Source of the DNA: an uncultured Bacteroidales bacterium
Lineage (GTDB): Bacteria > Bacteroidota > Bacteroidia > Bacteroidales > P3
Length of the DNA stretch: 64,000 nucleotides
Direction of reading: 5' to 3'
Assembly: GCA_900316055.1 (NCBI GenBank)
Contig: ONBK01000006.1
Coordinates: 42,881 to 106,880 of the forward strand
Positions 3,148 through 22,777 of the stretch are shown here, piece by piece. Each line of letters starts with the position of its first letter. Position 1 is the first letter of the stretch. The notes under the pieces were generated by a model. The model was not told the origin of the DNA and did not search any database. It saw nothing but the letters and a program-made list of their open reading frames with translations. A program made the position numbers and the translations under genes.

Positions 3148-4347
3148 ATGAAGAAATTCTTTTTCTCAGTCATGCTTCTGCTGGGTGCCGCCACCTGCAT
3201 GCAGGCACAAGAAAACGTCTTTATCACTGACATCGCCGAAGGCTGGAAGACGAAACCCATTGAGAATGTCATCAATGGAAGTCTCGGAATCATGATGGAG
3301 GCCTTCCACAAGACCTGGCCCACCTACGTCACCCGCGATGCCTGCAGTGTGATGGAGGAAGGCCTGGACAAGAAAGTACTCGACCCTGAAACGGACTACA
3401 CTGTGACTGTCGATGCCGCAAACGGGTTCCTGTTGGTTGGTGACGGCGGAACCGACGGCCTTTATATGTCGTCCTGCATCTGGAACCGCGACAACGGACA
3501 CAAACTCTTCGCCGTCATGATTGGCAAGCCCACCGACCCCGAACTCGAGGTGGTGTGCTTCTACGACTACGACCCCAAAGCCAAACGTCTGACTCCGGAG
3601 CCCAACATCCTATCCGACTTCAAGCGCAAAGAGGAAAATAGTCAAATCTCCCACCAACTGCCCCGCAAAGGAAAAGAGCTGATTATCCTCGAATATGCCC
3701 TGCCTTTCATCTATGCCCACCATTTCGCCTGGAACGGGATGCAGCCCGTCTTCGAAAAAGTCGATATCGACAGGGAGAAGATGAAAGAGTTTGGTGAAGA
3801 GCCTGACGGGTCTATCTCTGTAACCTTCAAAGGTCAGAAGCCCGGAATCGGCGATTTCGTGACGGCCATTCTTTCACAAGAAGAACTTGGCGAAGCACTG
3901 GGCGGAATGGCTGAGGACTGGAAGAAATACCAGAAGGGGAAAACGCTGGCCAAGAACACCACCATCACGGTGGATTCCAAAAACGGCTACGTACGCTACG
4001 ACGTGAATCATCCCGAAGGGGAGAACCTGTATATCGAGTACTGCTACTGGAACTGTGCCGACGGCAAGCACAAACTGGTGGCGGAGAATGTGTCGTTAGT
4101 GGTAAACGGCGAGCCGGTGGATACCGAGCTCACGGGACTTTCGTTCTATTGGTACGACAACACCAGCCACAAAATGAACTACAAATATGCCTTCGAACTG
4201 GGAGAAGAGATAGAAGCCGCCTATGGTGCCACGGGATGCATGCGCAATCTGCCCCGTCAAGGAAAGACCATCGAATTTGTGTACTTCACTCCCAAAGGGA
4301 AGGTGACAAAGAAACTGACCTGGGACGGGAGGAAGTTTGTGAAGTAA
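3148..4347 (+). CDS. exported protein with two homologous halves, function unknown
   Basis: I do not recognise this 399-residue protein. It opens with a clear signal peptide (lysines, hydrophobic core, cleavage after MQAQ near residue 21). The mature part appears to be an internal duplication: residues about 90-200 and 280-395 share the order T-TVD--NG, a WN--(D/N)GHKL-type segment, a short FYDYD/FYWYD strand, then LPR(K/Q)GK followed by a FAWNG/LTWDG ending. It is likely periplasmic or surface-linked because no lipobox is present. It is first in a run of four co-directed exported proteins (to 8825), which suggests a shared envelope role. Confidence 0.7.
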   Translation: MKKFFFSVMLLLGAATCMQAQENVFITDIAEGWKTKPIENVINGSLGIMMEAFHKTWPTYVTRDACSVMEEGLDKKVLDPETDYTVTVDAANGFLLVGDGGTDGLYMSSCIWNRDNGHKLFAVMIGKPTDPELEVVCFYDYDPKAKRLTPEPNILSDFKRKEENSQISHQLPRKGKELIILEYALPFIYAHHFAWNGMQPVFEKVDIDREKMKEFGEEPDGSISVTFKGQKPGIGDFVTAILSQEELGEALGGMAEDWKKYQKGKTLAKNTTITVDSKNGYVRYDVNHPEGENLYIEYCYWNCADGKHKLVAENVSLVVNGEPVDTELTGLSFYWYDNTSHKMNYKYAFELGEEIEAAYGATGCMRNLPRQGKTIEFVYFTPKGKVTKKLTWDGRKFVK

Positions 4348-4381
4348 TAGGTTAATGGTTATAGGTTTTTGGTTATTGGTC
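4347..4381 (+). repeat. degenerate GGTTATAGG repeat tract
   Basis: GGTTAATGGTTATAGG... units of about 8-9 bases fill the gap between two exported-protein genes. The same unit recurs at 6243-6275. Confidence 0.6.
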
Positions 4382-5152
4382 ATGAAGCATTCTTTAATAA
4401 TTCTCATATCCTTTTTACTTTGTGGATTTTCGCAGACGGCGCGGGCCGATGTGATTGCGGATTTCCACTTTGAGGGCACTTTGGGTGACAAGATTGGAGT
4501 TTCCATTGAGTTTGCCGTCAATGGCGATATGGTTGCCGTTGGCGAGATTGTCTACACCAACCACAAAAACCCCATCCGCATGCTGTTGGTGGGGGTATGG
4601 GACGGTGACGAGTACCGTCTCAACGAGTACAAACTCGACGGCACCGTTACCGGCTGCCTGTATATGAAGATTGACGACACCACCTACAACACGCCCGAAA
4701 TGACCGAAGGCACCTGGATTAACTACAAGACCGGAAAAATGTACGAGATGAAGAATATGGAGTATATCGGAACATCGTCGAACAGTTTCTGGGATTACGG
4801 CACCCAAGAGACCATCGAAGGAGACTACTACTTCCACCAGTGGGACACTGCATCGAATTCAATGGTCATCGGAAGCGCCTCCTTCCGTTGGGCCGGTGAC
4901 CACAAACTGGACTTTGAAATTCTCAACGACCTGGAAGTTAGTTACATAAGCAGCACCCCCGGCCGTCCCGCCGAACTCAGGCCCTACACTTACAATGACT
5001 TCGTCTATGAGAAATGCAGTTACGTTTTCGAGGCCCATTTCTTCAAAAATTTCGTGGTGCTAATTACCGACTCGGAACCTGAGAACAATATGTGTGGCGA
5101 CAAGAACCTCAAAATTGACGGGGTATACTTTAAAATGAAAAATGAAAAGTGA
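4382..5152 (+). CDS. exported protein, function unknown
   Basis: A 256-residue protein that I do not recognise. I chose the ATG at 4382 because it starts a proper signal peptide (MKHSLIILISFLLCGF..., cleavage after TARA); an in-frame ATG at 4355 would lie in the repeat tract. The mature protein is rich in aromatic and acidic residues and short beta-strand-like segments, with a YYFHQWD segment near the middle. The last codons (FKMKNEK) coincide with an AAAATGAAAAATGAAAAG repeat, so its C-terminus may have been extended by repeat sequence. It is the second of four co-directed exported proteins. Confidence 0.65.
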   Translation: MKHSLIILISFLLCGFSQTARADVIADFHFEGTLGDKIGVSIEFAVNGDMVAVGEIVYTNHKNPIRMLLVGVWDGDEYRLNEYKLDGTVTGCLYMKIDDTTYNTPEMTEGTWINYKTGKMYEMKNMEYIGTSSNSFWDYGTQETIEGDYYFHQWDTASNSMVIGSASFRWAGDHKLDFEILNDLEVSYISSTPGRPAELRPYTYNDFVYEKCSYVFEAHFFKNFVVLITDSEPENNMCGDKNLKIDGVYFKMKNEK

Positions 5153-5174
5153 AACATATTAAGAAATTAAGAAT

Positions 5175-6242
5175 ATGAAAACAATCTTTACCTCCTTATT
5201 TCTTACCTCCCTACTCTACATTGGCTGTGGTAGCAACGGTTCGAAGAGTGACTCTTTGAACGCCATCGACACTGCCGACATTGTGGCCGATGCCACTCAG
5301 GATTCCATCCGTCACACGAAGGAATACATCGCCCAGCGCATCGACACCATCTACAAGTACAAGGACGACATGCGCTTCTGCTCGGCAAAATATCTGTCGT
5401 TGGATGCCCATGCCAGCAAGCTCAGCCATGAGATGGGTTATGTCTACCGAGACTACGACCACTGGGTCGTCGGACAGGATATTGACAAGAAATGGAGCTA
5501 TAAAATCAAAGAAATCAAGAACATCACCGAGGCTACGGCCGACGTCGAACTGACCGTCCACAACTTCAAAAACAGGAAAATCATTCTCAACCTGGTCTTC
5601 GAGCGCGGTGACTGGTTCGTCGACGACTTCCACATCTCCTTCTCCGGCCAAGACCTCGGCAACGTGAGTGAGAAAGCCGACATGCTCACCTTCATCTACA
5701 CCTGCAACAACGAGAAGATTGACAAGCAATACGGCAAGACCTTCGACATCAACAAGTATCTGAACGCCATGATCGCCGCCTCGGAACTTGGCGACGAAGT
5801 TGTGTTCGATAAGTATGCGCTTATCGATGTCGACCTCGACGGCACCTATGAGGTCCAGGTACACACCCTTGACGACTTCTACGATGCAGTCTTCTCCATC
5901 GCCGACGGCAAACCCGTGTTGCTGGTCTGTACCGACCCCCATACCATGCTGGACTTCTTCGAGCACGGCGTGGCGGCACAGGGTGGCTGTGGCACCGGCT
6001 GCGCACGCGGCGAGTTCTGCATCATCAAGGATAGCCGTCCCGTCTGCCGCACCACCTGGATGGACCAGTACAACATGAAAGGCGACAAGATTGACAGCGA
6101 AAGCGGTTACACGGTCAACGACAAGGGATGCGACGAGGAGACCTACATGAAAGCGATGAGCGCCATCGGCAAATACGTCACCTTCGAGCCCATATGGCAC
6201 CCCATCGAAGTCCGTAAGACCCTCTCCGACTACGCTGAATAA
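5175..6242 (+). CDS. lipoprotein, function unknown
   Basis: A 355-residue lipoprotein: the signal peptide ends in a lipobox-like LYIGC, with the lipidated Cys near residue 18. An unstructured acidic and serine-rich stretch follows. A segment DVDLDGTYEV near residue 218 resembles the calcium-binding Dx(D/N)xDG loop found in secreted Bacteroidota proteins, and a Cys-rich patch GGCGTGCARGEFC follows near residues 272-284. No enzyme motif is recognised. It lies 22 bases after the previous exported protein and 63 before the next, so all are probably co-transcribed. Confidence 0.65.
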   Translation: MKTIFTSLFLTSLLYIGCGSNGSKSDSLNAIDTADIVADATQDSIRHTKEYIAQRIDTIYKYKDDMRFCSAKYLSLDAHASKLSHEMGYVYRDYDHWVVGQDIDKKWSYKIKEIKNITEATADVELTVHNFKNRKIILNLVFERGDWFVDDFHISFSGQDLGNVSEKADMLTFIYTCNNEKIDKQYGKTFDINKYLNAMIAASELGDEVVFDKYALIDVDLDGTYEVQVHTLDDFYDAVFSIADGKPVLLVCTDPHTMLDFFEHGVAAQGGCGTGCARGEFCIIKDSRPVCRTTWMDQYNMKGDKIDSESGYTVNDKGCDEETYMKAMSAIGKYVTFEPIWHPIEVRKTLSDYAE

Positions 6243-6275
6243 AATGGTTATGGGTTATAGGTTATGGGATATAGA
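6243..6275 (+). repeat. degenerate GGTTATGGGTTATAGG repeat tract
   Basis: Short imperfect GGTTAT(G/A)GG units in the gap between the lipoprotein and the YARHG protein, the same family as at 4347-4381. Confidence 0.6.
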
Positions 6276-6305
6276 AAAAATAGGAATTATTAAATAAATT
6301 GTAAT

Positions 6306-8825
6306 ATGAAGCATTTGTCCCCTTCACTCCACTCTCACTTCCCTCTCACTTCCCTCTCACTCCTACTCCTTCTCACCTTTCACCTTTCATCTTTCACCTT
6401 GTTCGCCCAGCCCATCCAGAACGGCGACAAGTTCTGGGACGGCGCCGTCTTCTATCAGGCCAGCACCTTCAGCAGTGGTGCCGTAGACCTCGTCGGCAAA
6501 GATATCAACGGCGACGAATATAGCATTGCCCTCATCTGGAACGAAGACAAAAACGAATATTCCGTCTTCTCCCGCAACGGCGCCATCGCCCTGCGCGTCA
6601 ACGAAGGAGCCAGAGTGAAGAAACTCTTCATCGACCGCGTTTCCCATTTCCTGGTCTTCTACAATAACAAGGGCGACGCCGCCTGGACGTTGAGATACTT
6701 CCTCAATGCCGACCTGCAGAGCTGCACCCTCATGGAGCGCAACCTCGAGCAGATGCCCACCTCCGAAGTCATCACCACCCACCTGCTCAACACCACCTGG
6801 CTGGCACGCTTCCCCAAGGAGGAGCTGCGCCTCATGCGCAACGAAATTCTCGCCCGTCACGGCTGGAACTTCCAATCCAAAGACCTGCAGGACCACTTCA
6901 AGAAAGAGAAATGGTACAAGCCCGTCAAGGACAACAGCACCGTCGTCCTCAGCGACCTCGAGCGCACCAACCTCGAACTCATCAAAGCCGAAGAGGCCAC
7001 ACCCGATGATTACCGCTACAGCATGCTCTCACCCGACATGTTCCCCGGCGGTCTGGCCGACGACGGCCGCGGACCCGAAGAGATCAACGGCGTGCAGACC
7101 TATACCGTCACCAACGAGCGCGAGTTCCTCAACGCCCTCGGTCCCAACCGCACCATCGTCCTCGCCAAGAACGTGCACCTCAACCTCTCGCGCGTCCTCG
7201 AGAACGAGAGCCTCTTCATCGACAACCCCAACCGCCGCTGGGTTCAGTCCGGAGAAGACTTCATCGGCACTATTCCCCTCGTCATCAGCGAAGGAGAGAC
7301 CGACGGCCAGCAGCTCGACCTCGTCAATATCGACAACCTCACCATCCGCGGCGCCGGCAACGCCAGCATCGAAGTCGACCCGCGCTACTCCTACTGTCTC
7401 TACTTCATCAACTGCCACCACTGCCGTGTGGAGAACCTCACCATCGGCCACACCGAATACGGTTTCTGCTCCGGCGGCGTCATCGGCGCGAAGAAATGCG
7501 ACATTCTCGAAGTTCTCGACTGCGACCTCTACGGCTGCGGCACCTACGGCTTCGACGTCATGGAGAGCCGCAACCTCGATGTCCGCAACTGCAACGTCCA
7601 CCATTGCACCTACGGCATCATGCAGCTGCGCAAGTCGCAAGGGCTGCACTTCACCAACTGCGACTTCTTCCAAAACAAGGAGTACGACCTCGTCGAAGGC
7701 CGTGGCTGCAAGGATATCACCTTCACCGACTGCCGCTTCTACAGCAACAAATACGATAACACCCTCTTCAGTTTCGACTCCAAATTCGTCCTCGAAGGCT
7801 GCGAGATCTACTGTCCCACCGACAAACTCGGCACCATGAGCCAAGCCGACCAGTCGGGCAAGAAAAACTTCTTCTCCCCCGAGTCCGACCCCCTCAACCT
7901 CGCCACCCGTCCCATCGGCCCCGACCAGCAGATCCTCGCCTCCATGCCCATGTTCCTCTATATCCTCGACAAGGACCACATGCAGATGGTCTACTGGAGC
8001 GACGTGAAAGAACCCGTGCTGAACGATGAGAGCGCCGACTACTACGAAGCCGAGCATGCCCGCTGGGAGCTGCAGGAAAGTTTCCGCCAGAATGCCGAGA
8101 AGTACATCAACCTCATCACCCCCTCCGGCAAGGTCTGCATCCTCAAACACATCGGCGAGACCCTCAAGGATTCCAAAGGCCGCGACATCTACCCCGGCGA
8201 GCTCCACAGCCGTCCCTCCATCCCCTCCCCGGGTCTGAAATACGCCTTCGCCTACCCCGGCAACATGCTGCCGGAAGACGAGATGTGGGGCATGTGGGTC
8301 GTCGTCACCAACGACTACCTCCGCAGCCACGCTTTCGTCCCGATGACCTACCATCTCGACAGTCCCAAGACCCTGCCCTCCAAAGTCGTCAAGCAACTCG
8401 AGAAGCAGTACAATATGAAAGCCGAGCGCTCGCAGCTGATAGAATCCAACGACCGCTTCGGCTACGGCGTCCTCCAATTCAAAGGCCCGTGGAAGACCCG
8501 CATCGGTGAATACGGCGACACCACACAGGTGGCTCTGGCTCTCGAGGTCTTCACCGTCGACGGCAAGGTCTACGCCTACCCCATGGAAGGTTACTACGAC
8601 AACGTCTATGGTCCCACCTGGAATGCCGACGATGGTGGCGAATACATGTCAGGTGATGTCATGGTTTTTGACAGTCCCGACGGCCCCGAATTCTGCCATA
8701 TCCACGGCGCCCCCGAGAGCATCACCGTCAGTCTCTTCACCATCCGCGACGGCAAACTCACCCACCAGCGTTACGAAGTCTACCACGCCCTCTACGACGA
8801 ACCCGACCCCAACTGGGAGGAATAA
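6306..8825 (+). CDS. exported YARHG / right-handed beta-helix protein
   Basis: An 839-residue exported protein. The signal peptide (cleavage after LFAQ, near residue 35) is encoded largely by CTCACTTCC/TTTCACCTT repeats. Residues about 165-220 form a YARHG domain (NEILARHGW... followed by KWYKPV), a small extracellular domain of unknown ligand. Residues about 330-520 consist of regular short turns rich in C, N, D and G (for example CDLYGCGTYGFDV), typical of a right-handed parallel beta-helix of the pectate-lyase/NosD type; the C-terminal 300 residues are unassigned. Such helices often bind or cleave polysaccharide, but I see no catalytic signature, so activity is unproven. It is the last gene of the exported-protein run. 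Confidence 0.75.
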   Translation: MKHLSPSLHSHFPLTSLSLLLLLTFHLSSFTLFAQPIQNGDKFWDGAVFYQASTFSSGAVDLVGKDINGDEYSIALIWNEDKNEYSVFSRNGAIALRVNEGARVKKLFIDRVSHFLVFYNNKGDAAWTLRYFLNADLQSCTLMERNLEQMPTSEVITTHLLNTTWLARFPKEELRLMRNEILARHGWNFQSKDLQDHFKKEKWYKPVKDNSTVVLSDLERTNLELIKAEEATPDDYRYSMLSPDMFPGGLADDGRGPEEINGVQTYTVTNEREFLNALGPNRTIVLAKNVHLNLSRVLENESLFIDNPNRRWVQSGEDFIGTIPLVISEGETDGQQLDLVNIDNLTIRGAGNASIEVDPRYSYCLYFINCHHCRVENLTIGHTEYGFCSGGVIGAKKCDILEVLDCDLYGCGTYGFDVMESRNLDVRNCNVHHCTYGIMQLRKSQGLHFTNCDFFQNKEYDLVEGRGCKDITFTDCRFYSNKYDNTLFSFDSKFVLEGCEIYCPTDKLGTMSQADQSGKKNFFSPESDPLNLATRPIGPDQQILASMPMFLYILDKDHMQMVYWSDVKEPVLNDESADYYEAEHARWELQESFRQNAEKYINLITPSGKVCILKHIGETLKDSKGRDIYPGELHSRPSIPSPGLKYAFAYPGNMLPEDEMWGMWVVVTNDYLRSHAFVPMTYHLDSPKTLPSKVVKQLEKQYNMKAERSQLIESNDRFGYGVLQFKGPWKTRIGEYGDTTQVALALEVFTVDGKVYAYPMEGYYDNVYGPTWNADDGGEYMSGDVMVFDSPDGPEFCHIHGAPESITVSLFTIRDGKLTHQRYEVYHALYDEPDPNWEE
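6320..6401 (+). repeat. CTCACTTCC / TTTCACCTT repeats coding a signal peptide
   Basis: Tandem imperfect CTCACTTCCCT units are followed by CACCTTTCACCTTTCATC units. They lie in frame inside the signal peptide of the YARHG protein and encode its Ser/Leu/Phe-rich hydrophobic core. Confidence 0.75.
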
Positions 8826-8873
8826 AATAGCCTCGTAACACAATAAAAGCTCTGGTGTGCCGTTATAGGCGGT

Positions 8874-9893
8874 ATGAAACAGAACAAAGTTCTTATCGTT
8901 TATACCGGTGGCACCATCGGCATGGTGCAGGACGAGAACGGCTCGCTGCACCCCTTCGCCCTCGACCGCATCTACGACGCTGTACCACAACTCAAACACT
9001 GTGAATATGGCATCGATTCCGTGACGCTCGACAGCATCATCGATTCCAGTTGCATGACCCCCGCCCTATGGGTGAATATCGCTGAAATCATCGAACGCGA
9101 GTATGACCAATACGACGGCTTTGTTGTCCTCCACGGCACCGACACCATGGCCTACACCGCCTCGGCCTTGAGTTTCATGTTCAAGAACTTGGCCAAGCCC
9201 ATCGTACTCACCGGCAGTCAGCTGCCTTTAGGCATGCTGCGCAGCGACGGCCGCGAGAACATCATCTGCGCTCTTGAGATTGCCTCCACACGCCAGGTGA
9301 CCATCCCCGAAGTATGCATCTTCTTCGACAGCCACCTCTATCGTGGCAACCGCAGCACCAAGATCAACGCTGAAAACTTTGATGCTTTTGAATCTTATAA
9401 CTACCCCTCGTTAGCTAAGGCTGGCATCAACATCTCATTCAAGGAGCACCTCTTTCAGCCCATGCCCACCGAGCCTCTGCAGGTACGCAAGAAATTCGAT
9501 ACCCGCGTAGCCATCCTGAAACTCTTCCCCGGCATCGGACCCGAGGTGGTCAACACCGTGCTCCACACCCCTGACCTGCAGGGTGTGGTCATTGAAACCT
9601 ATGGCTCCGGCAACGCCCCCACCGACGAATGGTTCATCTCCGCCCTCGACGACGCGATCCGTCGCGGCATCATCGTCCTCAATGTCACACAATGTAAGGC
9701 GGGTTCCGTCAAGATGCGCCAGTATGCCGCAAGCTGCGATATGGACCGCATTGGCGTCATCGGTGCCGGCGACATCACCATCGAGGCTGCCATCGCCAAG
9801 ATGATGTGCCTCCTTGGCGAATACCCCAACGACAAAGAGCATGTAAAGATACGCCTTAGCCAGTCGCTCCGCGGAGAAATCACAGAACAATGA
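8874..9893 (+). CDS. ansA: type I L-asparaginase
   Basis: A 339-residue cytoplasmic enzyme hydrolysing L-asparagine to aspartate and ammonia. The first catalytic threonine is in YTGGTIG near residues 10-16 and the second in VVLHGTDTMAYT near residues 84-95, both characteristic of the family. Absence of a signal peptide and the length match the cytoplasmic type I (AnsA) group rather than periplasmic type II. Its stop overlaps the start of the PorT-like gene (ATGA), so the two are translationally coupled even though their roles look unrelated. Confidence 0.9.
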   Translation: MKQNKVLIVYTGGTIGMVQDENGSLHPFALDRIYDAVPQLKHCEYGIDSVTLDSIIDSSCMTPALWVNIAEIIEREYDQYDGFVVLHGTDTMAYTASALSFMFKNLAKPIVLTGSQLPLGMLRSDGRENIICALEIASTRQVTIPEVCIFFDSHLYRGNRSTKINAENFDAFESYNYPSLAKAGINISFKEHLFQPMPTEPLQVRKKFDTRVAILKLFPGIGPEVVNTVLHTPDLQGVVIETYGSGNAPTDEWFISALDDAIRRGIIVLNVTQCKAGSVKMRQYAASCDMDRIGVIGAGDITIEAAIAKMMCLLGEYPNDKEHVKIRLSQSLRGEITEQ

Positions 9894-10705
9894 TTAAAGG
9901 AGTGAAAAGGAATGAAAAAGGAGTGACAAGGAGTGAAAGGACAAATGGGCACGACAGCGCTATTGTCCTCTCTCTCCCTTTCACTTCCTCTCACTTCCTT
10001 TCTCTCCTCCTTATCCTTCTCACCTTTCATCTCTCACCTTTCACCTCCCACGCGCAGGTGGGCAACCTCGGTAAGTTCGACTCGCGGCTGTTGCACTACG
10101 GCATCCAGGTGGGTTACACCCAATCGATGTTCGACCTCGAATACAGCGACGAAACCCTCCTCCGCGAGACCCTCCAGGGCGTCACTTCTTACTATGCCGC
10201 GGGGTTCCATATCGCTGTCATCGGTGATCTGCGCATCAACGACTGGTTCAACCTGCGGCTCATTCCCGGTGTCACCCTCGTCACCCGACAGGTCTCCTAC
10301 GCCTGGGAACCCGGCTATCTAAACACGCACCCCCTCGCCGAACGCTGGCGCAATGTCGAATCCGTCTATGGTGACATACCCATCGAGTTGAAGTTCCGCG
10401 CCAAACGCTACGGAAACTTCCGCCCCTACCTCACCGCCGGTGTCAGCTACGGCTTCGACTTCGCCTCGCTGCGCGAGAACAAGAACCTCACAGACGAGAG
10501 CATCATCCGCATCCAGCCCCACGACCTTCGCTACTGCATGGGGGTGGGCTTCGATGTCTTCCTGCGCTATGTGAAGTTCGCCATCGAATTCAAGATGAAC
10601 CTCGGCCTCCTCGACCTCAAAGTCGAAGACCCCGACATCTACATCCGCTCCTTCAACAACCTCACTACCCGCACCTTCATGATTTCATTCACCTTCGAAG
10701 GATAA
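9890..10705 (+). CDS. porT: PorT-like outer membrane beta-barrel (type IX secretion)
   Basis: A 271-residue outer-membrane barrel. From the signal-peptide cleavage site (SHAQ, about residue 56) onward the layout matches PorT family proteins: LLHYGIQVGYTQ at the start, FNLRLIPGVTL strands, KFRAKRYGNFRPYLTAGVSY in the middle and a terminal aromatic strand ending in FEG. PorT is an essential factor of the Bacteroidota type IX secretion system, in agreement with two T9SS-sorted proteins at 17412-20065. The N-terminus is unusually long because the region before the cleavage site is made of GAGTGAAAAGG repeats and their complement; the ATG at 9890 is the only in-frame one. Other PorT-family barrels of unknown role cannot be excluded. 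Confidence 0.7.
   Translation: MIKGVKRNEKGVTRSERTNGHDSAIVLSLPFTSSHFLSLLLILLTFHLSPFTSHAQVGNLGKFDSRLLHYGIQVGYTQSMFDLEYSDETLLRETLQGVTSYYAAGFHIAVIGDLRINDWFNLRLIPGVTLVTRQVSYAWEPGYLNTHPLAERWRNVESVYGDIPIELKFRAKRYGNFRPYLTAGVSYGFDFASLRENKNLTDESIIRIQPHDLRYCMGVGFDVFLRYVKFAIEFKMNLGLLDLKVEDPDIYIRSFNNLTTRTFMISFTFEG
9896..10055 (+). repeat. repeat tract and complement coding the PorT N-terminus
   Basis: GGAGTGAAAAGG-type units at about 9898-9941 are followed by CCTTTCACTTCC and CACCTTTCATCTC units at 9970-10050. The two halves are roughly complementary (AGTGAAAGG at 9932-9940 against CCTTTCACT at 9977-9985), so the mRNA could fold at the start of the gene. The tract is in frame and forms the first 55 residues, including the signal peptide core. 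Confidence 0.7.
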
Positions 10706-16355: not shown

Positions 16356-17249
16356 CTACTTGGTGGAGACCACCAGGTAATCGGTATACTGCCAGAATTT
16401 GGTAGGATTAAGAATGTGGAGATAGGCGGTGACCTTCTTGTTCTCCTCGTCGGCCACGAACTCGTAGCTACCCTCGGGGTGTTGGCTGACAAGGACAGGT
16501 TTCTTGAGATTGAGGGTGATGGTGGTAACCTTGGTGCGGTCAATCTCTGTAAACTTGTCGGTCTTCATGTTCGCCACGGTTCCCTGCTTACGGCCAATGC
16601 CGATGAAGCCACCAGATTTGCTTACTACACCAGCTTCCTTGAGTTCATCGTAGGTACCGACGATAAACCATGCGCGATTGGCATCGGCAATCTGCTTGGC
16701 AATACGCTGGTCCTTCTCCTCGTTAGAGGCGGTAAGGTCTGTGACATTCTGGTTAAGGTTGGCAACATTCTGGTGGAGATCCTTAATGACCACCTTGCTG
16801 TTCTCGAGTTCGGTAAGCAGTTCGGCAATCTGAGCCTCCTGAGCTGCGCTGCGTTCCTCAAGACGGGTGATATAAGCCTGAAGGTCGGCATTTTTACCAT
16901 TAAGGGTCTTGATGCGGCCGCTGAGCTGACGGATCTTCTCTTTATTGGCGGCCATGGTCTCCTGAAGGGCTGCCATACGATCGGTGATGGTACGGCGGTT
17001 GGCCTCAGGGTTCTTGCGGCTCATCTCTTGCATGACGGCATATTCGGCCTCGAGCTGTGCGAAGGTACTGTCGACCTCGTTGAGCATGGCCATGAGACTG
17101 TCGCGCTCAGCAAGACCGATGTTCTGCTGGGCGATGATATCACGCATGGAGTCGATCTGCTTTTGAGCTTCGGATTTACCGTCGCCGCCACAAGCCACAA
17201 ATGCGAAAGTGGCGACCAAGATACTGACTGTCAAAAAGATTTTCTTCAT
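16356..17249 (-). CDS. coiled-coil lipoprotein, function unknown
   Basis: A 297-residue lipoprotein with signal peptide and lipobox FVAC (Cys near residue 20). Residues about 25-165 are strongly heptad-like and rich in E, K, Q and L, giving a long coiled coil; a compact C-terminal domain begins at AWFIVGTYDELKEAG and contains a glycine-rich SGGFIGIGRKQG loop. This combination of coiled coil plus compact end domain is common in Bacteroidota lipoproteins without known function. It precedes uvrB by nine bases and is separated from the cobalamin operon by a terminator. Confidence 0.7.
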   Translation of the reverse strand: MKKIFLTVSILVATFAFVACGGDGKSEAQKQIDSMRDIIAQQNIGLAERDSLMAMLNEVDSTFAQLEAEYAVMQEMSRKNPEANRRTITDRMAALQETMAANKEKIRQLSGRIKTLNGKNADLQAYITRLEERSAAQEAQIAELLTELENSKVVIKDLHQNVANLNQNVTDLTASNEEKDQRIAKQIADANRAWFIVGTYDELKEAGVVSKSGGFIGIGRKQGTVANMKTDKFTEIDRTKVTTITLNLKKPVLVSQHPEGSYEFVADEENKKVTAYLHILNPTKFWQYTDYLVVSTK

Positions 17250-17357: not shown

Positions 17358-17392
17358 AAAAACCGCAACAGCCGTCACGGCCACTGCGGTCA
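17358..17392 (-). terminator. rho-independent terminator of the cobalamin-controlled operon
   Basis: On the minus strand, stem ACCGCA/TGCGGT with inner GCC/GGC pairs is followed by a T-rich run. It lies about 20 bases after the stop of the last gene of that operon. Confidence 0.8.
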
Positions 17393-17411: not shown

Positions 17412-18407
17412 TTATTTCTTTACTATTTTGCTTGCCAGGCCTTCGCAACGAAGCATGTAAATCCCTGCAGGAAGCTCAGTGAAATCGAGGGTATTGCGTC
17501 CTTGACAGAGATTATAAACAGAGACTATGAGGCCTCTGGCATCGACTAAGATTGCTTTGGAGGGACGCAACAGGGTGACGAAGAGATAGTCGGTAGTGGG
17601 GTTGGGGTAAACAACAAGTTTAGATTCGAGAGGTGTGAGCTGATTGTCGTCGATACCCTGAAGGGCGGTGAGGACAGCAACACCAGTGAGGTCGAAACCA
17701 CCGCTGGCATAATTAGCGTACTCGTTGGTGGGATAGGGATCGTTGACCATGTGGCCAAAGGCATCATAGGTAGCATACTGCGGATTGATGGTACCCACGA
17801 CATCGACGAGGCGCACATGGGTGATGTTGTCGATATCGAGGCCCACACTGTCGCGCAACTCCTCAAGGTCGAAGGGTGTACCATAGCCCACTCGGAACTT
17901 ACCTGCAAGGTTGTTGAGGTTGGTGGGGTCGACAGAACCGTTGGAACCCACTTGCACCTCGGTCTGGGTGAGCGAAGTGGAGGGGAAGCGCACGAAGCGC
18001 TCGCCATCGGAACTCACTTCAACAAAAGCCAACTCGAGAAAATTGTCGTTGAAAGAGTTCTCATAAACCGCAAAATCGGGACCCGGCACATTGTGGATGG
18101 GAGCACCGAAGGTGAGAGTAGCAGTACCGCCGTCACCAAGGCTGACAGCCGAAGTAGTGATGGTACCAGCAGGGCCAATACCGTATTCTTCATTACCATA
18201 ACGTGCACGAGGGCCATCGGGATTAACGATATCAACAGGGCCTCGTTCCACAGTACAACCCGTAGCCCAGCCGATAATGACACTGCTGTCGCAGTGAATG
18301 GCATTGCATCCGGGAGTGCCCACAGCACCGCAAAAAGAGCCCTGCCCCCAGGCACTCAACGAGAGGCCCAAGGACAGCGCCATCATAAAAAAGACATTAT
18401 TCTTCAT
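17412..18407 (-). CDS. T9SS-sorted surface protein in a cobalamin-riboswitch operon
   Basis: A 331-residue exported protein: a signal peptide (cleavage after SAWG/Q near residue 21), a central beta-rich domain with the block GPDFAVYENSFND...FLELAFVEVSSDGERFVRFP, and a C-terminal T9SS sorting domain starting at VVYPNPTTDYLFV and ending in lysines. The sorting domain directs export through the type IX system and surface attachment. I recall the central block from secreted proteins that often lie near B12 transport genes in Bacteroidota, but this was not checked. Its start overlaps the end of the upstream repeat protein by four bases (translational coupling), and both follow a cobalamin riboswitch. 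A role as surface B12-binding factor is inference. Confidence 0.72.
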   Translation of the reverse strand: MKNNVFFMMALSLGLSLSAWGQGSFCGAVGTPGCNAIHCDSSVIIGWATGCTVERGPVDIVNPDGPRARYGNEEYGIGPAGTITTSAVSLGDGGTATLTFGAPIHNVPGPDFAVYENSFNDNFLELAFVEVSSDGERFVRFPSTSLTQTEVQVGSNGSVDPTNLNNLAGKFRVGYGTPFDLEELRDSVGLDIDNITHVRLVDVVGTINPQYATYDAFGHMVNDPYPTNEYANYASGGFDLTGVAVLTALQGIDDNQLTPLESKLVVYPNPTTDYLFVTLLRPSKAILVDARGLIVSVYNLCQGRNTLDFTELPAGIYMLRCEGLASKIVKK

Positions 18408-20065
18408 TCTTTAATGATTTTCACAACACTATCATCCACGCGGAGCATATAGATTCCGGCAGTCAGACGACCGAGGTCGAGACGGGTCTCGGTGCCATTG
18501 ACAGCGAAGGATGCCACAATACTACCGCGCATGTCGTAAAGGACAGCTCGGCCGTTACCCTCGATACCACTGATAGTCACCATGTCGGCAACGGGATTGG
18601 GATAGACGTTGATGCTGACATTTTCAGTGTTGACGATACCTTGGGTCTGGGGAACGCCGACAGGATGAATCTCCATAGGGTAGACATAGGAGTAGTACCA
18701 GTATCCATTATACTCCATGCTGTCAACGATGACACCGGCAGCGGGTTCGGCCCACTTCTCGAAGTCACCGTTATTGAGGGTCTGCGCCATACCGGCATCA
18801 CTAATACCGTTATTCTTGCTCTCCCAATAACTATAAGCCTGCTTGCGGAGGGTATCGCCAGGGGCGACGACAAAGAGGATATCGTTGAGATAAGCACCGT
18901 CCATGGTGTAGCTGAAACGGGGGTCAGCGGCAGCGATATCCGTCATCATGTCACTGACAGTCTTGGTACCGTTGAACTTATATCCCCATGCAAGGGCGGT
19001 GTCGGCCCAGTTGACGGCCATAACCACCTCGTTGGAACCTTCGCCCACCCAGTAAAGGATGTCACTGGCGGAAATGGTAGACTCCTCGGGCATCGGAGCG
19101 GCGGGAACACTGACGGGATTGATAGCCATGGGATAGACATAAATATAGGACCAATAGGTCTCTCCTCCCCACTCATAGCTGAAGCTGTCGACAACAACTC
19201 CGGCGGCGGGTTCGGCCCATTTCTCAAAGTCACCGTTATTGAGGGTCTGCGCCATACCGGCATCACTAATACCGTTATTCTTGCTCTCCCAATAACTATA
19301 AGCCTGCTTGCGGAGGGTGTCGCCAGGGGCGACGACAAAGAGGATGTCGTTGAGATAAGCACCGTCCATGGTGTAGCTGAAACGGGGGTCAGCGGCAGCG
19401 ATATCCGTCATCATGTCGCTGACAGTCTTGGTACCGTTGAACTTATATCCCCATGCAAGGGCGGTGTCGGCCCAGTTGACGGCCATAACCACCTCGTTGG
19501 AACCTTCGCCCACCCAATAGAAGATGTCACTGGCGGCAATAGTGGCCTCGACGGGCTGGTCGGGAGCATTGGGATCCTCAAGGAATATGATGGTGTCTGC
19601 AGCGAATTGACCCATATCAGACCATTCAACAAAATCGCCATCACTTATTGACTGGCTGTTAATGGCGCTTGCCATATCGCCATTGACGGTATACATCCAC
19701 CAACCCATGCCAGAGCCATTAAGTTCAAGACCAGTTTCGGTGTTAGCGTAGGTCATGTCGTTGATGAACGAACGCCCTGAATTCATGGAGATGCTTAGAT
19801 TGGCATCATAGGTCGAGATCGTGTCCATCAGACTGTTGCAAAGGATTGTACCATTGAAGCGAACTCCCCAGACGGCACCGATATAGTATTCGTCGCCGTC
19901 ACCGTCAAGTTCTTCCCATGTGATAAGCACAACAGCTTGGTTGCTGCCGCTACCGACCCAGTAACGGACATCGCTGGCGGCGATGGCAGCCGTTTTGGGT
20001 GTCTGGGCCATTGCTCCAATGAAGAGCATCAACCCGAATGCTAAAGTAAGTACTTTTTTTACCAT
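18404..20065 (-). CDS. T9SS-sorted three-repeat surface protein under a cobalamin riboswitch
   Basis: A 553-residue exported protein (signal peptide to about residue 20). It has three related domains: residues about 26-165, 175-320 and 330-470. Each starts with ASD--YWVG-GSN and a tryptophan strand, then WG(V/Y)(R/K)FNGT and further along a (Y/S)(F/Y)(L/I)NDI-type segment. The second and third are almost identical even at DNA level. A C-terminal T9SS sorting domain begins at INVYPNPVADMV (about residue 487) and ends in IIKE. A cobalamin riboswitch lies about 135 bases before the start, so synthesis should drop when B12 is plentiful. Family and context suggest a surface cobalamin (or corrinoid) capture protein; direct binding is inference. 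No other B12 genes are in the window. Confidence 0.72.
   Translation of the reverse strand: MVKKVLTLAFGLMLFIGAMAQTPKTAAIAASDVRYWVGSGSNQAVVLITWEELDGDGDEYYIGAVWGVRFNGTILCNSLMDTISTYDANLSISMNSGRSFINDMTYANTETGLELNGSGMGWWMYTVNGDMASAINSQSISDGDFVEWSDMGQFAADTIIFLEDPNAPDQPVEATIAASDIFYWVGEGSNEVVMAVNWADTALAWGYKFNGTKTVSDMMTDIAAADPRFSYTMDGAYLNDILFVVAPGDTLRKQAYSYWESKNNGISDAGMAQTLNNGDFEKWAEPAAGVVVDSFSYEWGGETYWSYIYVYPMAINPVSVPAAPMPEESTISASDILYWVGEGSNEVVMAVNWADTALAWGYKFNGTKTVSDMMTDIAAADPRFSYTMDGAYLNDILFVVAPGDTLRKQAYSYWESKNNGISDAGMAQTLNNGDFEKWAEPAAGVIVDSMEYNGYWYYSYVYPMEIHPVGVPQTQGIVNTENVSINVYPNPVADMVTISGIEGNGRAVLYDMRGSIVASFAVNGTETRLDLGRLTAGIYMLRVDDSVVKIIKE
18741..19077 (-). repeat. near-identical intragenic repeat, copy A
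   Basis: This stretch matches 19206-19542 with about ten differences by eye; the offset is exactly 465 bases (155 codons). It encodes most of the third domain of the surface protein. Confidence 0.9.
19206..19542 (-). repeat. near-identical intragenic repeat, copy B
   Basis: Direct repeat of 18741-19077 encoding most of the second domain. High identity indicates recent duplication or gene conversion. Confidence 0.9.
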
Positions 20066-20199
20066 ATTGATATTGTTTTTTTTGTTAATATTTCAATGTC
20101 AATATCGGCATCTTACTTTTTTCGGGGGAAAACACATACAGACGCGACAAATCACGTCTCTACCGGAGTGCTTTTTCCTCGAAAGCGGTACCGATTTTA

Positions 20200-20370
20200 G
20201 TGATTTGGCAGGTCTTCTGGCTTGCTCTCTCGGCTCTGTCTTCCCATATAACTATAGCGTTATACAGTGACACATCATATTGAGCTTCAATACCTGAGCT
20301 TACAGCAGCGGGACTGCACCGGACTCTCACCGGTTTCCCTCTTGGCACCTTCGGCAGGTGACCAAATCGG
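20200..20370 (-). ncRNA. cobalamin riboswitch
   Basis: On the minus strand the element reads with its conserved parts in order: GATTTGG (P1 left arm), GGTGCCAAGAGGGAAACCGG, GAGTCCGGTGCAGTCCCGCTGCTGTAA, a variable arm, and the B12 box GCCAGAAGACCTGCC followed by CCAAATC, which closes P1. These are the hallmark segments of the adenosylcobalamin-class riboswitch. About 135 bases lie between its end and the start of the three-repeat surface protein; this spacer contains a small AGACG/CGTCT hairpin that could form part of the switching structure. It accounts for the long non-coding gap before rnr. Confidence 0.95.
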
Positions 20371-20373
20371 CGG

Positions 20374-20404
20374 CAAAAATACAAAATAAAATTAAACCGA
20401 CAAA
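20374..20404 (-). promoter_or_regulatory. promoter of the cobalamin-riboswitch operon
   Basis: On the minus strand TTTG (20401-20404) and TATTTTTG (20374-20381) are spaced by 19 bases and lie directly before the riboswitch. Confidence 0.85.
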
Positions 20405-20500: not shown

Positions 20501-22777
20501 ATGAACGAACAATTAGCCAAACAGATACTTAAAATCTTTGCCAACAATCCCTTCGATGCCTACAACCACAAGCAGATTGCCTCCCGCGTGGGTGCCAACA
20601 GCAAAGCCGAGCGACAGGAAGTCATTCGCACCATGCAGCAACTGGCCGAAGAGAAGCACCTCGTAGAGGACGATCACAAAGGGAAATTCAAGATTAATCC
20701 AAAGTCCATCAACGACGACCTAATGCCCCACAACTACGTCACCGGCACCATTGACATGAAGCAGGGCGGCAAGGCGTATGTGATTCCTGACGAAGAAGGC
20801 CGTGAAGATATCCAGATTGCTCCCAACAACACCCGTCACGCGCTCCACGGCGACACGGTGAAAGTACTGATGTTCCCGCAACGAAAGATGCACAAGCCTG
20901 AAGGTCAAGTGGTGGAGATTATCAAACGGGCCAAGACACACTTCGTGGGCGTCATACAGCGGCAGGAACGCTTCGCTTTCATGGTCAGCGACAGCCGTAC
21001 CATGCAGGTCGATATCTTCATCCATATCGACGACCTCGCCGGCGCCGAGAATGGCGAGAAGGTGCTGGTAGAGATGATTGACTGGCCCGAGCGCATGAAC
21101 AACCCCGTGGGCCGCGTCATCAAACGCCTCGGAAAGCCTGGTGACAACAACGTAGAGATGCAGAGCATTCTGGCCGAGTACGACTTCCCGCTCGACTTCC
21201 CCAAGGAGGTTGAAGAGGAAGCAAAGAAAATCAAGAAGCCCACCAAGAAAGAGATGGCCTCGCGACGTGATTTCCGCGATGTCACCACTTTCACCATCGA
21301 CCCCGCCGACGCCAAAGACTTCGACGACGCCCTCTCCTTCCGTGAACTGCCTAACGGACATATCGAAGTGGGTGTGCATATCGCCGACGTATCCTATTAC
21401 GTTAAACCTGGCAGCACCATCGACCGCGAAGCCTACACCCGAGGAACTTCTGTCTACCTCGTCGACCGCACCATCCCCATGCTCCCCGAGAAACTCTGCA
21501 ACGAGGTCTGCTCCCTCCGTCAAGATGAAGAGAAACTCTGCTTCAGCGTCGTCTTAGAAATGGATTCCAAAGCCAAAGTCCACAAGACCTGGATGGGCAA
21601 GACTGTCATTTGTAGCAACCGCCGCATGGCCTACGAAGAGGCTCAGGAAATCATTGAGTCCGGCATAAGCGACGGCACCGCCGTCGCCACAGCCATCCTC
21701 CGTCTCCATGCCCTCGCCACCATCCTGCGCAACCAGCGCTACAAAAGCGGAGCCATCAACTTTGAGACCCAAGAGGTGAAGTTCCAACTCGACGAAAACG
21801 CCAAACCCATCGGCGTCTACATCAAAGAAAGCAAAGAGGCCAACTGGCTCATCGAGGAGTTCATGCTCCTGGCCAACCGAAGCGTTGCTGAATATATCGG
21901 AAAGCCTTCTGGGAAATCTGGAAAGTCCGGAAAAACAGGAGCTCCCTCTCGCACCTTTGTCTATCGCGTCCATGACGAACCCAACCCCGAGAAACTCAAC
22001 ACCTTCGTGGAGTTCGTCGCCAAACTAGGATTCAGCATGAAGACCTCCAGTCGCAAGGCGCTCGCCGAGAGCTACAACCGTCTCTTTGAAAACATCGCCG
22101 GACGTGGCGAAGAACACATGGTCGACACCATCGCCATCCGCACCATGTCCAAGGCCTACTACAGCACCGAAAACATCGGTCATTACGGCCTCGCTTTCCC
22201 CTACTACACCCACTTCACATCCCCCATCCGCCGCTATCCCGACCTGATGGTCCACCGCCTCCTCGAACGTTATCTTGAGGGTGGTTCCTCGGCAAAAAAA
22301 GACGAGTATGAGGACTACTGCAAACACTGCTCCATCATGGAGAAGAAAGCTGCCGACGCCGAACGCACCAGTGTAAAATACAAGCAGGCCGAGTTTCTGG
22401 CCGACAAACTGGGCCAGGTCTTCCCTGCCCTCATCAGTGGTGTCAGCAAATGGGGCATCTACGCCGAAATCGAGGGCAACAAATGCGAGGGCATGATACC
22501 CATCGGTAGCCTTAAGGACGACTACTACATGCTCGATGAGGACAACTACCAAGTCATCGGTCGCCGTAACGGACGCTGCTACAAACTCGGCTATCCCGTC
22601 CATATCCGAGTCCGCAAGGTTGACCTCCTGAAAAAACAGATAGACTTCGACCTCGTCGAAGAGGAAGCACAGAATCCCGCTCCAAAAGCCAAAAACTCCC
22701 GGAAAAACCGAAAAAACAGCAAAACCGGAATCCCCGGAAAATCCGGAAAGGCCGGAAAGAATAAGAAAAAGAGGTAA
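20501..22777 (+). CDS. rnr: ribonuclease R
   Basis: A 758-residue 3'-5' exoribonuclease of the RNB family that degrades structured RNA. An N-terminal winged-helix-like region and two cold-shock OB folds precede the RNB catalytic core, whose metal-binding aspartates lie in DPADAKDFDDALS (residues about 267-279); TSPIRRYPDLMVH marks the end of the core and an S1 domain follows (SGVSKWGIYAEIEG). The basic C-terminal tail is typical of RNase R. Two segments coincide with GGAAA(A/G)TCC-type repeats: GKSGKSGKTG inside the catalytic region near residues 467-481 and the GKSGKAGKNKKK tail. It converges on an acyl-CoA ligase with a three-base gap. Confidence 0.93.
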   Translation: MNEQLAKQILKIFANNPFDAYNHKQIASRVGANSKAERQEVIRTMQQLAEEKHLVEDDHKGKFKINPKSINDDLMPHNYVTGTIDMKQGGKAYVIPDEEGREDIQIAPNNTRHALHGDTVKVLMFPQRKMHKPEGQVVEIIKRAKTHFVGVIQRQERFAFMVSDSRTMQVDIFIHIDDLAGAENGEKVLVEMIDWPERMNNPVGRVIKRLGKPGDNNVEMQSILAEYDFPLDFPKEVEEEAKKIKKPTKKEMASRRDFRDVTTFTIDPADAKDFDDALSFRELPNGHIEVGVHIADVSYYVKPGSTIDREAYTRGTSVYLVDRTIPMLPEKLCNEVCSLRQDEEKLCFSVVLEMDSKAKVHKTWMGKTVICSNRRMAYEEAQEIIESGISDGTAVATAILRLHALATILRNQRYKSGAINFETQEVKFQLDENAKPIGVYIKESKEANWLIEEFMLLANRSVAEYIGKPSGKSGKSGKTGAPSRTFVYRVHDEPNPEKLNTFVEFVAKLGFSMKTSSRKALAESYNRLFENIAGRGEEHMVDTIAIRTMSKAYYSTENIGHYGLAFPYYTHFTSPIRRYPDLMVHRLLERYLEGGSSAKKDEYEDYCKHCSIMEKKAADAERTSVKYKQAEFLADKLGQVFPALISGVSKWGIYAEIEGNKCEGMIPIGSLKDDYYMLDEDNYQVIGRRNGRCYKLGYPVHIRVRKVDLLKKQIDFDLVEEEAQNPAPKAKNSRKNRKNSKTGIPGKSGKAGKNKKKR
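21900..21943 (+). repeat. in-frame TCTGGAAAG repeat in rnr
   Basis: Imperfect TCTGGGAAA/TCTGGAAAG/TCCGGAAAA nonamers encode SGKSGKSGKTG. A nonamer keeps frame, so the peptide repeats as SGK. Confidence 0.75.
22690..22776 (+). repeat. CCGGAAAA repeats at the 3' end of rnr
   Basis: CCCGGAAAAACC, CCCCGGAAAATCC and GGAAAGGCC units encode the lysine- and glycine-rich tail of RNase R and are of the same kind as the internal tract at 21900-21943. Confidence 0.65.

Follow-up and report, generated by a model that had tools for sequence, protein, structure and literature searches.

A cobalamin riboswitch ahead of a gene pair with predicted type IX secretion, transcobalamin-beta-like repeats, and a BtuH-like domain in an uncultured Bacteroidales bacterium

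The minus strand of a 64,000-nucleotide stretch of contig ONBK01000006.1 (positions 42,881 to 106,880 of the forward strand; referred to as the window, with its positions used below unless a contig or locus is named) from an uncultured Bacteroidales bacterium carries one apparent transcription unit, in which a promoter, a cobalamin riboswitch, and a folded leader are followed by two genes, here called gene 1 (18404-20065) and gene 2 (17412-18407), and by a terminator. We consider it likely that this pair is a split-off cassette that, exported by the type IX secretion system (T9SS) and provided with its own riboswitch, would capture vitamin B12 at the cell surface and feed the BtuB-BtuG transporter (BtuBG). 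A preliminary description of the locus had proposed T9SS-exported surface proteins for corrinoid capture, and comparison with other genomes and with solved structures supports this proposal, because of the gene order in the relative 'bacterium P3', the riboswitches leading relatives of gene 2, and predicted folds that come nearest to B12-binding domains.

A scan of named genomes of the phylum yielded 516 confirmed gene-2-like loci, and all statements below on 80 loci refer to the best 80 of these 516, which are mutually related. Among them, the nearest relatives by similarity to gene 2 are metagenome-assembled genomes of rumen Bacteroidales and 'bacterium P3'. In the latter (locus L093), a riboswitch, btuB, btuG, gene 1, and gene 2 succeed one another on one strand, with the counterpart of the window's pair forming the end of the transporter cluster (riboswitch at 3948; stop-to-stop frames of btuB at 4039-6207, btuG at 6198-7265, a three-repeat protein at 7202-8917, and a gene-2-like protein at 8890-9930). 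Related orders, in which G2 denotes the BtuH-like domain of gene 2, were found in further genera of the family: riboswitch-btuB-btuG-(three repeats plus G2) in L084, riboswitch-G2 protein-btuB-btuG in L075, and riboswitch-G2 protein-riboswitch-btuB-btuG in L069 and L074 (the first riboswitch of L074 scoring only 36 bits). Outside the Bacteroidales, Flavobacterium cupreum (L154) shows the order riboswitch-btuB-btuG-gene 2. In L069, L075, and L070, all from sister genera, the protein consists of G2, DUF4465, and a T9SS domain (the stretch read for L070 has no btuB); judging from these sequences, the transcobalamin-like repeats of gene 1 occupy the place that DUF4465 holds in the sister genera. 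Gene 1 and gene 2 are fused in many relatives, for instance, in a 769-amino-acid protein with three repeats and G2 (L082) and in one of 2,152 amino acids with five repeats (L087), and the number of repeats ranges from 1 to 5. Single frames of more than 2,000 amino acids, with two to five repeats and G2 behind one riboswitch, were observed in L087, L091, L095, and L099.

The host genome (assembly GCA_900316055.1; 2.43 Mb in 32 contigs, one of which holds the entire window; 96% complete) contains three cobalamin riboswitches, which precede the gene 1-gene 2 pair, btuB-btuG, and nrdD. The second (C8:20969-21168) is located on the same contig, 42 kb from the pair, and is followed by a TonB-dependent receptor whose closest solved structure is BtuB1 of Bacteroides thetaiotaomicron (8blw_A, expectation value [E] of 1.4e-122) and by a DUF5074 protein closest to BtuG1 (8blw_B, E = 2.7e-37). 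The absence of a transporter gene, as stated in the preliminary description, therefore holds for the operon, which has no btuB, but not for the genome; the idea of a genome without a B12 transporter was rejected in view of btuB-btuG and the separate riboswitch that leads them. The third riboswitch (C24:17268-17466, minus strand) precedes the gene for a class III, B12-independent ribonucleotide reductase (nrdD, L005:15054-17150). The genome also encodes a class II enzyme, NrdJ, and one FecCD-type permease, and B12 supply would likely toggle the cell between NrdD and NrdJ.

How regularly the pair and its riboswitch occur together was assessed at three levels. Within the family, a search of 149 genomes returned a gene-1-like match in 95 and a gene-2-like match in 100, from which 45 genomes were picked by hand. 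In 43 of these 45, a riboswitch lies at most 8 kb upstream of the gene 2 match on the same strand (50 of 54 when counted by match rows, three of which are pieces of one protein), compared to a chance expectation, by our own arithmetic, of about 0.5%, given 145 riboswitches spread over the 45 genomes, each about 2.4 Mb in size. G057 and G089 are the two exceptions, and in G089 a gene 1 match on another contig has a riboswitch directly upstream. Across the phylum, the 80 loci extend from rumen Bacteroidales to Flavobacterium, Mariniflexile, Lishizhenia, and Chitinophagales. A riboswitch was present upstream on the same strand in 71 of them (69 after two matches below 30 bits were dropped), where upstream means any upstream position inside the locus, up to 9 kb, and where the riboswitch model covered the 5' half only and was built from 16 sequences including this locus (77 matches, two of them below 30 bits). 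btuB and/or btuG was found on the same strand in 43 loci and on the other strand in none; 21 loci have both, and 74 have a riboswitch or btuB/btuG. These transporter genes were sought by single-sequence phmmer with the host genome's proteins, by which distant ones are missed.

Finally, we approached the loci from the side of the repeat. Pfam DUF4430 maps the repeat too narrowly (2 of 247 phylum genomes, including our own), and hence a repeat alignment (A1) was used, which matched 31 of 247 Bacteroidales genomes, our own included, in 23 of 174 genera. Of the 29 such loci that were read, with flanks of only about 1.5 kb and with near-identical genome pairs included, 21 have a riboswitch, without exception on the same strand and upstream, and in 16 a strong gene 2 domain lies behind the repeats or is fused to them. 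Genome G378 belongs to another family of the order and encodes a 280-amino-acid protein (L191:5819-6658) that has a single repeat and, by eye, a lipobox, in a riboswitch-led stretch together with btuB, btuG, and a BtuH; this protein may be a counterpart of BtuK or BtuL of B. thetaiotaomicron. No repeat-bearing lipobox protein was found in the stretch upstream of btuB in genome G386. Taken at the level of sequence comparison, gene 1 and gene 2 make up a two-part cassette for B12 uptake that is widespread, located beside or inside the btuB-btuG cluster in relatives, and it is probably exported by the T9SS in many lineages and lipid anchored in some.

Gene 1 encodes a protein of 553 amino acids with a signal peptide read by eye (MVKK...AMA, probably cleaved before a Gln), three tandem repeats of about 150 amino acids each, and a T9SS sorting domain. 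R1 (19574-19996, minus strand) holds the DUF4430 match, whereas R2 (19091-19552) and R3 (18638-19084), on the same strand, are recent duplicates of one another, with 89% identity in protein and 88% in DNA, compared to 30 to 31% between R1 and either of them. An AlphaFold2 model of R2, built from 62 repeats with a mean predicted local distance difference test score (pLDDT) of 96.5, was compared with the PDB, and ranks 1 to 14 were all taken by transcobalamin, haptocorrin, or intrinsic factor, the mammalian B12 carriers; the first unrelated matches start at E = 0.35. Since all 14 belong to one family, we count them as one piece of evidence. They include 5np4, in which, according to its entry title, cyanocobalamin is bound to the beta domain of human transcobalamin in isolated form. 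DUF4430 includes this human beta domain. A clear DUF4430 match (48.2 bits) is present in the relative L084, which has a similar architecture, and certain Trp, Gly, and Asp positions of the repeat alignment are invariant or nearly so. By predicted fold, and with weak E-values, the repeats of gene 1 thus appear to be distant relatives of DUF4430 and the transcobalamin beta domain. Apart from DUF4430 and the sorting domain, no Pfam match above the cutoff was obtained for gene 1, and the same scan found no alpha/alpha toroid, the partner of the beta domain, in either gene 1 or gene 2. A single gene 1 repeat is also contained in a 1,577-amino-acid multidomain protein on contig C19 (L068:7237-11970), which has a partial sorting-domain match.

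Gene 2, whose start overlaps the end of gene 1 by 4 nucleotides, encodes 331 amino acids, comprising a signal peptide (...SAWG followed by Q, by eye), the G2 domain of about 230 amino acids (17655-18344, minus strand), and a T9SS sorting domain. In a comparison of the G2 model (48 sequences, mean pLDDT of 90.7) with the PDB, BtuH2 of B. thetaiotaomicron ranked first (7biz_B, E = 4.9e-4) and BtuG1 with its BtuH domain second (8blw_B, E = 6.9e-4); BtuH2/BtuG1 also took rank 5. An alignment in hhalign pairs SLGD-GGTATLTFGAPIHNVPG-PDFAVYENSF of G2 with the BtuH stretch TLGGWGGYVTFGFDHTIINVEGKRDFRINGNAF of L191, and the stretch common to G2 and BtuH, LG..GG...F...I.N..G..DF....N.F, holds Asn399 and Phe401 of BtuH2. 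These are the N and F of GNAF (in the 7biz chain, Gln333 is at index 233, and hence residue equals index plus 100), and they align with Asn96 (Asn in 48 of 48 sequences) and Phe98 (Phe in 43 of 48) of G2. According to passages of PMC8941943, Asn399 and Phe401 of BtuH2 contact the phosphate and lower ligand of B12. The link between G2 and BtuH in sequence is thus weak, yet it appears to be located at the ligand site. The BtuH domains of BtuH2 (BT_1956), BtuG1, and BtuGH, the best fold matches of gene 2, likewise belong to riboswitch-controlled accessories of B12 uptake, and, as with BtuH, gene-2-like genes lie in or beside the btuB operon in L093, L084, L069, and L075, if not in the window itself. 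However, BtuH2 is a lipoprotein with PKD domains, whereas gene 2 has no lipobox by eye and no PKD match and bears a T9SS domain instead; it is also without the D.N.NG.PD.EW stretch of BtuH, and sequence similarity is very low. Because of the missing lipobox and the T9SS domain, we call the modelled domain BtuH-like and do not file it as BtuH. An identity with DUF4465 (BtuJ) was rejected, as PF14717 was unmatched in genes 1 and 2 and in the host genome. The preliminary description had envisaged a role comparable to that of BtuG and BtuH with a different architecture; it set the pair apart from BtuH too sharply, as the domain of gene 2 is itself BtuH-like in predicted fold, while gene 1 is transcobalamin-beta-like.

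Several results weigh against B12 capture by the pair. On the side of the repeats, the fold matches of R2 are weak (E = 0.025 to 0.18, template modeling scores of 0.40 to 0.51 by query, none at E ≤ 0.001), and the repeat profile found nothing at E ≤ 10 among the PDB sequences. The DUF4430 (PF14478) match in gene 1 is marginal, with 21.3 bits in one scan and 24.6 in another around a cutoff of 23.8, and just 12 of the 62 repeats reach DUF4430 at E ≤ 0.1, the modelled R2 having no match. For G2, netrin (E = 7.3e-4) and CBM32/discoidin-type folds (from E = 1.4e-3) match nearly as well as BtuH. The hhalign comparison of G2 with three BtuH sequences is weak (probability of 32%, E = 4.8e-4, 38 columns; in a control, A1 against BtuH gave 0.1%), a global run gave a probability of 0.1%, and a search of the PDB with the G2 profile returned no BtuH match. 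Overall, PDB sequence searches with gene 1, gene 2, and the profiles gave sorting-domain matches, chance-level matches, or nothing, and for this reason the case for kinship with BtuH and transcobalamin is built on fold and context. As for that context, 9 of the 80 loci show no upstream riboswitch and 37 show no btuB/btuG, and no riboswitch was found in the genome search on contig C19, which carries the single-repeat multidomain protein.

Some of these observations would also suit ordinary T9SS adhesins or glycan binders that do not bind B12 themselves and for which the riboswitch reads B12 as a signal of the state of the host or community. The proximity of the G2 fold to CBM32 and discoidin domains and the riboswitch-free C19 protein both point in this direction, as do the frames of more than 2,000 amino acids in some relatives, adhesins often being long and repeat rich. 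Nevertheless, we regard this explanation as improbable: btuB and btuG adjoin in many relatives, the top fold matches of both domains are B12 binders, and G2 is fused to DUF4465, a family for which B12 binding was measured (passages of PMC13398666). A narrower reading, whose odds overlap those of the capture cassette as a whole, is that only gene 2 binds B12, in the manner of BtuH, with the repeats acting as spacers, as docking modules for BtuBG, or as binders of other ligands. It would account for the gene-2-like proteins without repeats in Flavobacteria and some sister genera (within the stretches read) and for a repeat number that varies, spacer-like, from 1 to 5, and it has a parallel in BtuK2 and BtuL of B. 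thetaiotaomicron, which belong to the operon but for which binding of cobalamin was not observed (passages of PMC12751083). On the other hand, the best fold matches of the repeats are all cobalamin carriers, including a beta domain with its cyanocobalamin, and the invariant and near-invariant Trp, Gly, and Asp would suit a binding site better than a spacer; we hold the restriction to gene 2 to be rather unlikely.

The promoter (TTTG-N19-TATTTTTGC, 20373-20404, minus strand) matches the Bacteroidota consensus, and this pattern occurs at seven sites across the window, whereas shuffled sequences average 0.22. Its -7 box overlaps the start of the riboswitch match (20190-20381, minus strand), which spans the full length of Rfam model RF00174 (positions 1 to 189) with 107.2 bits and E = 7.2e-26, compared to a curated cutoff of 31.5 bits. 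The leader between aptamer and start codon (20060-20189, minus strand) is strongly structured (-36.9 kcal/mol, z = -5.7) and is a candidate expression platform; with the start codon inside a predicted stem and a leader hairpin (20140-20159) followed by a weak T-run, the switch may act on transcription or on translation. If the riboswitch were a relic, or drove something else, the genes would have to be transcribed from another promoter, for which the leader offers a sigma-70-like match (20061-20088), though near chance (seven such matches, compared to 3.8 ± 2.0 in shuffles). The full-length aptamer, the Bacteroidota-type promoter directly in front of it, the lack of a second such promoter between that site and gene 1 in the pattern scan, and the like arrangement in nearly all selected family members make this scarcely credible. 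Downstream of gene 2, an intrinsic terminator (17361-17391, minus strand) has a 14-pair stem and a T-run (-19.5 kcal/mol, z = -4.5). With three terminator-like sites, the region has no more of them than shuffles do (mean of 3.0), and the call therefore depends on how strong this site is and where it lies. The promoter, riboswitch, and terminator had all been read from the locus in the preliminary description, as had the three-repeat secreted protein, the second secreted protein behind it, and both sorting domains, and each of these was borne out, the signal peptides by eye.

Both C termini carry a T9SS type A sorting domain (Por_Secre_tail) above the Pfam and NCBIfam cutoffs: in gene 1 at 18410-18607 (minus strand; PF18962, 40.4 bits; TIGR04183, 35.2 bits) and in gene 2 at 17415-17612 (minus strand; 31.2 and 28.3 bits, respectively). 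At E ≤ 0.001, the genome has 58 sorting-domain matches, of which 54 exceed the cutoff, and it contains the gene for the T9SS translocon protein SprA (2,390 bits). A sorting domain was present in nine of nine homologues tested, from Flavobacterium cupreum to 'bacterium P3', where the counterparts of gene 1 and gene 2 both carry one. From these observed sorting domains and SprA, we infer that the products of genes 1 and 2 are T9SS type A cargo.

With these elements, the following course of events can be proposed. At low intracellular B12, the riboswitch would, in keeping with the known action of its family, permit expression of both genes, the translation of which is perhaps coupled. Both proteins would be exported from the cytoplasm by Sec and then through the outer membrane by the T9SS, gene 1 bringing three putative sites of the transcobalamin-beta type and gene 2 one of the BtuH type. 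Presumably anchored on the outer surface or else shed, they would hold corrinoids and might hand them over to BtuB-BtuG, the complex whose genes lie at a distance of 42 kb behind the second riboswitch of the same regulon.

Part of this picture is already known, namely, that Bacteroidota have riboswitch-controlled accessory binders of B12 at the surface and that DUF4465 proteins bear export tags. BtuG, a YncE/DUF5074 beta-propeller lipoprotein, captures B12 at the surface under the same kind of riboswitch, but it has another fold than the pair, and its gene accompanies btuB behind the second riboswitch. BtuJ1, BtuJ2, and other DUF4465 proteins are, like the proposed pair, riboswitch-regulated B12-capture proteins; passages of PMC12751083 and PMC13398666 describe crystal structures of this family with B12, sub-nanomolar to nanomolar binding, and a C-terminal export motif in 38% of 824 DUF4465 proteins (229 with IPR026444 and 88 with IPR013424). 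In contrast to those systems, the host genome has transcobalamin-like repeats in place of DUF4465. Similarly, gene 1 has in common with transcobalamin, intrinsic factor, and haptocorrin the predicted fold of their C-terminal beta domain (as modelled for R2) and probably the role of an extracellular B12 binder, but it differs from these carriers in its tandem repeats, its T9SS export, and the lack of a toroid partner in the Pfam scan. Transcobalamin-like SLBB domains of Gram-positives, planctomycetes, and some archaea were described as probable B12 scavengers (Burroughs et al. 2007, PMC1796856); the passages of that paper on this clade place it in animals, Gram-positives, planctomycetes, and archaea and do not name Bacteroidota, where gene 1 is found, and the term riboswitch is absent from its text. 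For BtuH, passages of PMC8941943 report no known structural homologues. The pair was not found described in open-access full-text literature on T9SS and B12, DUF4430, or BtuG/BtuH, and it may be in print elsewhere; the one paper there that mentions type IX secretion together with cobalamin and riboswitches deals with a TonB transporter of flavobacteria, and the papers on DUF4430 do not, by their listing, concern B12 uptake in Bacteroidota. As far as seen, then, what is new are the transcobalamin-like repeats as a riboswitch-controlled module of Bacteroidota, their T9SS-exported BtuH-like partner, and the conserved cassette that they form.

A more far-reaching version of the capture cassette, which we put forward tentatively and which may well not hold, is that of a multisite 'bacterial transcobalamin'. 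Each repeat would bind a corrinoid, while the BtuH-like domain, as a partner or fused, would cover the other face of B12 and so do the job of the alpha toroid in the animal carriers. Such a two-sided hold by repeat and G2 is worth considering because BtuH and BtuJ of B. thetaiotaomicron grip opposite sides of the corrinoid (passages of PMC12751083) and because relatives fuse the repeats to G2. The proteins would then act as sponges of high capacity, either at the surface or after release into the medium, and would reload BtuBG; DUF4465, transcobalamin-like repeats, and BtuH-like domains would be capture modules exchanged around a constant BtuBG core.

The locus is flanked by a divergent gene with an RNB domain of the RNase R type (20501-22777, plus strand; PF00773, 373 bits) and, downstream, by a gene for a coiled-coil lipoprotein of the NCBIfam Cbp1 family (16356-17249, minus strand; 201 bits). 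By eye, a Cbp1-like gene is also located 3' of the cassette in L082 and L087. In another genome, G002, a second nearby riboswitch (L080:6504-6694) precedes a frame (5065-6378, minus strand) that by eye is acyl-CoA transferase-like, and the frames behind it resemble subunits of NADH dehydrogenase (by eye).

Surface capture of B12 in Bacteroidota has so far been described mainly through the lipoproteins of gut Bacteroides. The gene 1-gene 2 pair suggests that T9SS export is a second route, used in rumen Bacteroidales and, as far as gene 2 is concerned, also in Flavobacteria and other Bacteroidota, and one that involves a domain similar to the B12 carriers of animals. It also proposes a ligand for two families that Pfam leaves unnamed or barely reaches, and, if the repeats do bind B12, this would bear on the origin of transcobalamin.

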